Positions 1,582 to 33,216 of a stretch of DNA of 36,042 nucleotides are shown piece by piece; within the stretch, counting starts at the first letter, position 1; each line of letters opens with the position of its first letter. This DNA is from an uncultured Pseudomonadota bacterium. Lineage in GTDB: Bacteria; Pseudomonadota; Alphaproteobacteria; UBA9219. The translations under genes and the position numbers were made by a program. The DNA is taken from NCBI GenBank assembly GCA_903869345.1, contig CAIPYM010000059.1:1-36042 (forward strand), written 5' to 3'. The notes under the pieces were generated by a model that was not told the origin of the DNA, made no database searches, and worked only from the letters and a program-made list of their open reading frames with translations.

Positions 1582-3810
1582 TTATTCTGTCCCGCCCATG
1601 TACCCCGGCAACCAGCCCTCGTAGGCCTTGCGGAGAACAGCCAGCGTTAGGGGCGGGGAGCCAGGGAGGGTCAGCGAGGCCGTGCCGTCCGTGGTCCCGA
1701 CGTTCAGGCAGGACACCCCGGCGGCCTCGGCGCGGCGGGTCAGCGTGGACACGTCACGGGTCGTCACGACGTAACGTGCTTGGTCCTCGCCGAACCAGAA
1801 TCCCACATCCCGCGCGGGGCCTGCCAGGGCGCAACCGATGTCTCCGGCCAGGGCCATTTCCGCGACCGCGACCAGAAGCCCGCCGTCCGAAACATCGTGG
1901 CACGTGGTGATAAGCCCCTCGGCAATCAGGGCACGGATCAGGTCCCCCGCGCGTCGCTCGGCGGCCAGGTCCACGGGCGGCGGGGGGCCGTCCTCCCGGT
2001 TCGTCAACAGGCGCAGGATCAGCGATTGCCCCAGGTGCCCTGTGCCCGGCTCGCCCAGGACATAAACCCCCTCGCCCGGAGTCTTGAACGCGATTGTCGC
2101 TGTGCGCGTCACGTCCTCAATCAGCCCGACGCCGCCGACAACGGGCGTGGGCAAAATGGGCTCCCCGTCGGTCTCGTTGTAGAGGCTGCAGTTCCCCGAG
2201 ACGACGGGGTAATCCAGCGCCCGGCATGCTTCACTCATTCCCTGAACAGCGCCGACGAACTGCCCCATGATCAAGGGTTTTTCGGGATTTCCAAAGTTCA
2301 TGTTGTCGGTGATCGCCAAGGGCCTTGCCCCCACCGCACAGAGGTTCCGCCAGCTTTCGGCCACGGCTTGCTTGCCGCCCTCCACGGGGTCGGCTTCCAC
2401 GTAGCGCGGGGAGCAATCGACCGTCAGCGCCAAGGCCTTCCCCGTCCCGTGAACGCGCACCACCGCCGCGTCCCCTCCGCCGCTCGAATCTTCGGCCGTG
2501 TCCGCCCCCACGTGGCGATCGTACTGTTCCCAGATCCAGCGTTTGGAGCCTAAATCCGGTGTGCCCATCAGCTGCACCAGAACCGTCAGCGGACTCTCCC
2601 CCTGCGGCAACGTGCACGCGTCCGGTGCCAGCGCGGGGCGCGGAGGTGTGACCTCGTAGGGCCGATCATAGAGGGGCGCGTTTTCAACAAGCGGAGCGAT
2701 TTCAATGTCGCCCTCGATGCGTCCATGCCGCCGAATGACGATGCGGCCTGTGTCGGTCAGAGTCCCGATGGTTGCGCAGTCGAGCTCCCACTTTTTGAAA
2801 ATCCGCTCGGCTTCCTCGGCCCGGTCGGGGCGGAGGACCATCAACATCCGTTCCTGACTTTCGGACAGCAAGATCTCGTAAGCCGTCATGTCAGCGGCGC
2901 GAAGAGGCACGCGGTCCAAATCCAAATCCAACCCCAGCCCCCCGCGCGAGGCCATCTCCACCGCCGAGGACGTCAACCCCGCCGCCCCCATGTCCTGCAC
3001 GGCGATAATCGCGTCCGTGGCCATCAGCTCCAAGCACGCCTCAATCAGCAGCTTTTCCGTAAACGGGTCGCCCACCTGGACCGTCGGGCGCTGGCTTTCG
3101 GTGCCAGCGTTGAACTCGCCCGAGGCCATCGTCGCGCCCTTGATTCCGTCGCGCCCGGTCTTCGACCCCACGTACACCACAGGATTCCCAACCCCCGCTG
3201 CCTTGGCCGTGAACAGACGATCCGCCGAGGCGATCCCGACCGTCATGCAGTTGACCAAACAATTCCCGTTGTACCGGGCGTGAAAGTTGGTCTCGCCCCC
3301 CACGGTCGGAACGCCGACGCAATTCCCGTACCCGCCGATCCCCGCGACCACACCCGCGACAAGGCGGCGCGTGCGCGGATGCTCCGGCGCGCCAAAACGC
3401 AGCGCATTTAGGTTCGCAACAGGCCGCGCGCCCATCGTGAACACGTCGCGCAAAATGCCGCCCACGCCCGTGGCCGCGCCCTGGTAGGGCTCAATGTACG
3501 ACGGGTGGTTGTGGCTCTCCATCTTGAAGACCGCCGCAAGGCCATCGCCAATGTCCACAACGCCCGCGTTCTCGCCGGGCCCGATGAGCACCTGCGGCCC
3601 CGTGGTCGGAAATGTCCTGAGCCACTTGCGCGTGGACTTGTACGAGCAATGCTCCGACCACATCGCGGCAATGACGCCGAACTCGGCCTCCGTCGGCTCC
3701 CGCCCGCCGAGGATCCGCAGCGCCACGAGATATTCCTCCGGCGTCATATTGTGCTCGGCCAGCTTGCGGAGCGTTTCGGGGGGGAGAGGGGATGCAGAAA
3801 CGGACGCCAT
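1582..3810 (-). CDS. purL: Phosphoribosylformylglycinamidine synthase subunit PurL (FGAM synthase II)
   Basis: PurL is the ATP-binding synthetase subunit that converts FGAR plus ammonia to FGAM in de novo purine synthesis, with ammonia supplied by PurQ and assembly helped by PurS. The product is about 742 aa, the small PurL type rather than the ~1300-aa fused enterobacterial enzyme. Seen in sequence: [14 protein letters not shown] near residue 52, [35 protein letters not shown], a [13 protein letters not shown] loop, [10 protein letters not shown], and the C-terminal HDVSDGGL motif. These cover both AIRS-like halves. The ATG at 3810 is chosen; a GTG at 3819 (MLPMASV) is also possible, and neither has a strong ribosome site. 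The gene appears intact. The partner purQ is about 17 kb away and no purS is visible in the window. Confidence 0.97.
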
Positions 3811-31297: not shown

Positions 31298-33216
31298 ATG
31301 CCTTTCCCTCCCGCTTTTCTGGACGAGCTTCGCGCTCGGGTGCCGCTCTCGGCGCTCGTGGGACGGCGGGTGCGGTTGGTCCGCGCGGGCCGGGAGTTCA
31401 AGGCCTGCTGCCCTTTTCACCACGAAAAGACTCCCAGCTTTTATGTGAACGACGGCAAACAATTTTACCACTGCTTTGGCTGCGGCGCGCATGGCGACGT
31501 GATTGGCTTTACCATGCGTCACGATCGTCTGAGTTTCCCCGAGGCCATTGCGCAGCTTGCGGGCGAGGCGGGGATTCCCGTGCCCACCAGCGCCCCGGAC
31601 GAGCGCGAGGCGGCCTCGCACGAAAAGCGTCTTCGCCATGCGCTGGAATCCGCGACCGCGTGGTTTGAAGATCAACTCTTCCGTCCTGCCGGGCGCGAGG
31701 GGGTCGAGTATTTTCGCGCACGCGGCTTGTCCGACGAAACGATCCGGCGGTTTCATCTAGGGTACGCGCCGCGCGAGGGCTCGGCCTTGGTCCAGGCCCT
31801 GAAGCAAGCGGGATGCGAGCTTGACGATTTGCAGGTCTTGGGATTGACCCGCGCCGATGCTGTGCGCGGCGGGGCGTACAGCTTTTTCCGTCACCGCGTT
31901 CTGTTCCCCGTCAGTGATCGCCGGGGTCGGACCGTCGCGTTCGGGGGGCGGGTGTTGGGGGAGGGCGAGCCCAAGTACCTGAACTCGCCGGAACATCCGC
32001 TTTTTCACAAAGGCAAGACGCTCTACAGCCTGTCGCGGGCGCGGGGTGCGATGGGGGAAGGTCAACCCCTGATTGTGGTCGAAGGCTACATGGACGTGAT
32101 TGCGCTGGCCGAAAACGGCTACGCGGGCGCGGTGGCTCCGCTGGGGACGGCGCTGACCGAGGATCAACTCGCGCTGCTCTGGCAGACCCTTCCGCCCGCC
32201 GGGGCGCGGGGCCCGGATCAGGGCGATAGCCCTATCCTGTGCTTTGATGGTGACACGGCGGGGCGTCGTGCCGCGGCAAGGGCGCTGGATCGGGCGCTGC
32301 CTCTTTTGACGCCCGACAAGACGCTCCGCATTGCGTGGATGCCCGAGGGTGCGGACCCCGATAGCCTCATCCGCTCGGGCGGGCGAGCGGCGTTTGCGGC
32401 CGTTCTGGAGCGAGCACAACCGTTGGCCGAGGCCCTCTGGAGCCTTGCGCTCGCGGGCCAGCGGACCACCACGCCGGAAGAGCGGGGGAGGGTGCTTGGG
32501 GCCCTGCGGCGGCAGGTGGCTCAGATTGGCGATGAAACGCTCCGCCGCCTGTACGAAGACGACATCCGCAGGCGGTTTGCGGAGACCTTCCGGGCCCCGG
32601 CGAGGGCGGCGGCTTCGGGGGGGTGTGGGATCGGAATCGTAACAACGCATCTTTTCAAGGGGGGGGCACTTTCCGGGGCGCGGGGGGAATCGTTGGCGGG
32701 GGCTCGGCCTTGGCTCCGCGCAAGCCCACGGACGTGCGACGCAAGATCGGGCGGACCCTCTTGGCCCTCGTCCTGAATCATCCGCCTTTATTTGCGGAAG
32801 TGGGCGAAGACTTGGCACGCGTAAGTTTTGACGAGTCCTCGCTGGAGGCGGTTCGAGCGGCTCTGGTGACTTTTTTTAGCCAGGACGGGCACGAAAGCCT
32901 TGACGCGGCGGAGGTTTATCGCCATGTCTCAGGGGAACAAGAGGACTCCCCCGCGCTGCGGAAGGGGTTGGTTGAGGTGTTGTCCGAATCCACGTACGCG
33001 GATTCTCCGGCGGCGAAACCGGATCGCCCGCAGGAGGAAGTTCGCGCCGCATGGCATCGGACGTGGAGGCGCCACGTGACTCTGGCTATGGAGGCGGACC
33101 TGAAAGGGGCCCAGGCGCGTTACAGCGCTGATCCGTCCGACGACAATCTCGCCCGCGTGATGGCCTTGCAAGCTTGTCTGGAATCGGCGCGGAGCCTTGG
33201 CGAGGACGCGGCGTAA
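31298..33216 (+). CDS. dnaG: DNA primase DnaG, interrupted by a one-base frame change
   Basis: Primase makes RNA primers for replication and is recruited by DnaB. From the ATG at 31298 the first frame shows the CHC2 zinc finger (C38, H41, C59, C62), the RNA polymerase fold with TOPRIM motifs (VVEGYMDVIAL and DGDTAGRRAAAR), and runs to a stop at 32776. From about residue 442 that frame becomes nonsense, while the -1 frame (open from about 32623 to 33216) encodes the expected C-terminal helicase-binding domain (RRKIGRTLLALVLNHPPLF onward). One extra G in the 7-G run 32617-32623, or in the G runs 32659-32666 or 32682-32687, would restore a protein of about 639 aa, the normal length. Sequencing error, real mutation or recoding cannot be told apart here. 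It precedes rpoD by 48 bp. Confidence 0.9.

Follow-up and report, generated by a model that had tools for sequence, protein, structure and literature searches.

The question raised by this locus is why dnaG, an essential gene, is read in two frames in the deposited sequence, and whether this split belongs to the cell or to the assembly. The window, i.e., the whole stretch of 36,042 nucleotides from an uncultured Pseudomonadota bacterium that was analyzed, contains dnaG with its 5' end at position 31298, flanked by gyrA and rpoD. An earlier note had assigned the zinc-finger and TOPRIM parts to one frame and the helicase-binding C-terminus to the -1 frame, had placed the switch among three G homopolymers, and had offered recent decay, a wrong read, or recoding by slippage as explanations. 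The split itself was corroborated by Pfam analysis, homology, and G+C content by codon position. The frame-0 product scored 418 bits against TIGR01391 and contained the Pfam domains Zn_ribbon_DnaG, DNAG_N, and Toprim together with a DnaB_bind segment (PF10410). In the -1 frame, Pfam DnaG_DnaB_bind was matched weakly (E = 0.002, under its cut-off), and similarity to the C-terminal domain of DnaG proteins from the same family (up to 42% identity) was retained along the entire length of the C-terminus. Because the -1 part is homologous throughout, the C-terminal domain is taken to be under selection. The phase of the G+C content by codon position changed between ~32558 and ~32678. The three runs of 7, 8, and 6 G are present where they had been described (Table 1).

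Table 1. Coordinates of features at the dnaG locus and of the frame break in cdsA; positions refer to the window unless another locus is given.
Feature	Position	Strand	Remarks
dnaG, frame 0	31298..32776	+	zinc ribbon, primase core, TOPRIM, start of linker; homology stops near 32590
-1 frame, open from stop to stop	32536..33216	+	linker and C-terminal DnaB-binding domain; homology from ~32704; TAA 33214-33216
Interval that necessarily holds the frame change, by homology	32590..32704	+	codon usage favors the part before 32617
GC-rich imperfect inverted repeat	32580..32700	+	MFE -53.7 kcal/mol, z -1.86
G7 run	32617..32623	+	phase suits -1 tandem slip (TCG GGG GGG)
G8 run	32659..32666	+	phase suits -1 tandem slip (AAG GGG GGG G)
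G6 run	32682..32687	+	
cdsA (phosphatidate cytidylyltransferase), -1 frame break	L173 (G000:C33) ~3179-3200		found by tblastn

The position of the frame change was delimited by homology and by codon usage. With 18 DnaG proteins from the same family, tblastn similarity in frame 0 stopped at 32590-32662 (mostly at 32590) and resumed in the -1 frame at 32704-32758; the linker between these two borders is unconserved. A scan based on the codon usage of this genome gave a posterior with a peak at 32566-32610 and ~80% of its weight before 32617; the G7 run received 2.7%, the stretch from there up to the last base of the G8 run 4.0%, and all later positions 13%. Resting on composition, this result does not fix a single base. 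About a tenth of the weight was found within 32617-32687. From ~32593, the -1 frame reads as a normal-looking glycine-rich linker (GPGEGGGFGGVWDRNRNNASFQGGGTFRGAGG), and frame 0 reads as RAPARAAASGGCGIGIVTTHLF over the same stretch; the remainder of frame 0 beyond ~32590, which closes with the TGA at 32774-32776, is probably non-coding. A switch among the G runs was thus not confirmed, with most of the codon-usage weight upstream of them and a wider interval permitted by homology. As judged from composition, the frame change probably lies just upstream of the G runs and need not involve them.

The dnaG genes of relatives were compared at the family level and above (the set contained no genome of the same genus). 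All complete dnaG genes of the same family were single-frame (607-733 aa), and none carried a G run of six or more in the linker; C runs of 6-7 were present in the linker of three same-family genes. Three further same-family copies reached contig ends. Among the same-family genes, no conserved slip site of the kind expected for a dnaX-type mechanism was found. In a wider check of 110 loci, 94 were continuous, 3 ran off a contig end, 12 were unscored by motif, and 1 was broken. The latter belongs to another family of the order (genome G023; L022, G023:C237) and is interrupted near residues 170-200, a place at which dnaG of the congener G017 is intact; dnaG breaks in draft genomes thus arise sporadically and at unrelated places. 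The comparison of frame and G runs therefore provided no backing for recoding, given that the same-family genes are continuous and lack the runs.

G/C runs of at least 7 occur at 28.5 per 100 kb in this genome versus 3.2 and 3.5 in two same-family relatives (1.15 Mb sampled), an about eight- to ninefold excess. Their number is in line with the GGG/CCC-rich trinucleotide composition of the genome, as 329 runs were observed versus 337 in one Markov draw from this composition, and most of those located within genes are not accompanied by a frame break. On these grounds, a tendency of this genome toward errors at G runs was rejected. Among runs located in genes that keep one frame on either side of the run, a start at the third codon position, i.e., the -1 slippery phase shown by both the G7 and the G8 run of dnaG, was observed for 29 of 52 sense G7 runs and for 8 of 18 G8 runs. 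Hence, this phase is not avoided in ordinary genes of the genome, and efficient slipping on such runs would affect those intact genes, too. Two further features were recorded in the genome. Near position 16800 of L143 (G000:C3), the minus strand encodes a protein with HAFRW...GG repeats that also contains a long tract of glycine residues. A G11 tract is located at positions 11551-11561 of L154 (G000:C14), where a gene shifts by +1 between a membrane-like N-terminus and an HATPase_c sensor-type protein; the tract may act as a switch for phase variation, or its length may have been miscounted.

Frame breaks elsewhere were surveyed in 1.15 Mb of this genome, taken in stretches, using the proteins of two relatives and dnaG neighborhoods of the family and of Alphaproteobacteria as queries (317 loci by 300-base bins); E. 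coli core-gene regions served as an additional set (154 loci, partly overlapping the first set). After inspection of the surveyed loci, the breaks in dnaG and cdsA were the only real ones left. Other tblastn candidates (three in L146, and those in L183, L198, and L177) were discarded because they looked, on inspection by eye, like shadow ORFs, neighboring genes, or matches to rRNA. The cdsA gene, which is unrelated to dnaG and essential in well-studied bacteria, is split between ...GAVILILGG and RALYEWLRL... by a -1 change as in dnaG (site GGGCGGGCGC), and the part after the break matches CTP_transf_1, beginning at position 36 of the profile. Neither a homopolymer of six or more nor a slippery run is present at the cdsA break. 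Breaks of the same type in two unrelated essential genes of one assembly, one of them without a slippery site, argue for rare consensus errors rather than for programmed slippage. A home-made ab initio frameshift HMM run over 859 kb of this genome revealed no excess of breaks over two relatives, with 12 filtered events versus 10 and 9 (1.4 per 100 kb versus 2.9 and 2.4); these were mostly ATGA gene overlaps.

We consider it highly probable that the break is a one-base error of the consensus or assembly, or a minority variant, in an otherwise ordinary dnaG with a GC-rich linker, and that the gene is single-frame in the cell. The assembled dnaG would then lack one base or, with the same effect on the frame, contain two additional ones, with the fault most likely situated in the linker between ~32590 and ~32623, and the continuous gene of the cell would most likely give rise to a single full-length primase. 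The fault would stem either from a failure of consensus calling or assembly at a stretch that is GC-rich, strongly self-complementary, and dotted with G runs, or from a minority variant absorbed into the consensus of what appears to be a metagenome assembly. Long GC-rich hairpin stretches are known to be hard to sequence and assemble, and the inverted repeat found here (Table 1), which was equaled in stability by 8 of 200 shuffles, covers the doubtful site and does not lie downstream of it. Among the three options of the earlier note, the wrong read is accordingly the best supported one, since the relatives are continuous and cdsA is also broken. Counting against an error, the assembly is otherwise clean (two real breaks in several hundred conserved loci sampled), and it would be slightly coincidental for a random error to fall next to two G runs that are in phase. 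In the GeneTack survey of prokaryotic frame transitions, BLAST-validated singletons were expected to represent sequencing errors and not genuine indels (PMC3711429). The dnaG break resembles these singletons in its occurrence in one genome, the homology on both sides, and the unconserved shift site (PMC3711429); no difference from them was found, and the nearby G runs are ordinary for this genome.

It is quite unlikely that the indel is genuine, i.e., that the cell or a fraction of the population carries a recently broken allele which persists at low frequency or is compensated by a low level of slippage. A metagenome consensus may pick up such a minority allele, and the break looks recent because each frame retains its character; on the other hand, the disruption of cdsA as well would require two lethal lesions in one lineage. 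Moreover, no second complete DnaG was found in this genome, which is rated 99% complete, and the other primase-like genes are partial. These are two extra genes with DUF7146 and Toprim_3 domains (L002 1426-2451 and L003 1417-2364; G000:C60 and C66), one of which carries a DnaG-type zinc ribbon and which possibly originate from mobile elements; neither of the encoded proteins matches the helicase-binding domain, and a rescue by a second primase was rejected. Neither a dispensable gene nor an intact second copy, as expected for a pseudogene, was thus encountered, and the -1 part still has the appearance of a selected C-terminus. These results make the recent decay considered by the earlier note improbable.

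Lineage-specific recoding, in which a complete primase and a shorter one missing the helicase-binding domain would arise through a -1 slip of the ribosome or RNA polymerase at the G7 or the G8 run, or through gain of a base in the transcript there, is decidedly unlikely. In dnaX, an internal Shine-Dalgarno sequence precedes the slippery run at similar spacing to the purine-rich GAGGG motif that sits 10 nt upstream of the G7 run in dnaG. The two cases also have in common that a replication gene contains an in-phase slippery run and that the short product would lack the C-terminal domain, and homology is retained in both halves of dnaG. Unlike dnaX, the locus studied here has neither a conserved site nor a structure behind the run, the switch is probably located upstream of the run, and the frame-0 stop follows ~50 codons on. 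In folding tests restricted to nested structures, neither the 67 and 97 nt downstream of the G7 run nor the 94 nt downstream of the G8 run were more stable than shuffled sequences (z +0.66, +1.56, and +0.59, respectively), and no stimulatory structure of the dnaX type was identified downstream of the G runs. The occurrence of the same phase in runs of single-frame genes likewise speaks against recoding. No paper linking dnaG with programmed frameshifting was found in the literature searched. Wernegreen et al. (cited in PMC3711429) reportedly described in 2010, as the title has it, homopolymer frameshifts in essential genes that are ancient and kept by selection. Going by that title, they share with dnaG a break within a gene that must work, and differ in that the dnaG break is confined to one genome, at a site that need not be the run. 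Apart from the run phase and the GAGGG motif, all tests able to favor recoding were neutral or negative, leaving the dnaX-like recoding proposed earlier without positive support. We assign a very small probability to the reading that -1 slippage at one of the linker G runs lets this lineage form two primases from a single dnaG, of which one is devoid of the helicase-binding domain. A split primase with catalytic and helicase-binding parts as separate proteins is extremely improbable, for although a GTG at 32623 opens the -1 ORF from which (or from a later start) the second protein would be made, nothing resembling a Shine-Dalgarno sequence precedes it at the usual spacing, no ATG lies nearby, and none of the relatives has a split dnaG.

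For the highly probable case of an error in the assembled sequence, the locus mainly serves as a warning: when one draft genome shows a frame break, even next to homopolymers, that break has to be compared with relatives, with the phase of the same runs in intact genes, and with other essential genes of the assembly concerned. Should slippage nevertheless prove true, dnaG would become the second replication gene from which a short and a long product are made by recoding, and slippage would represent a new means of setting how often primase meets helicase.
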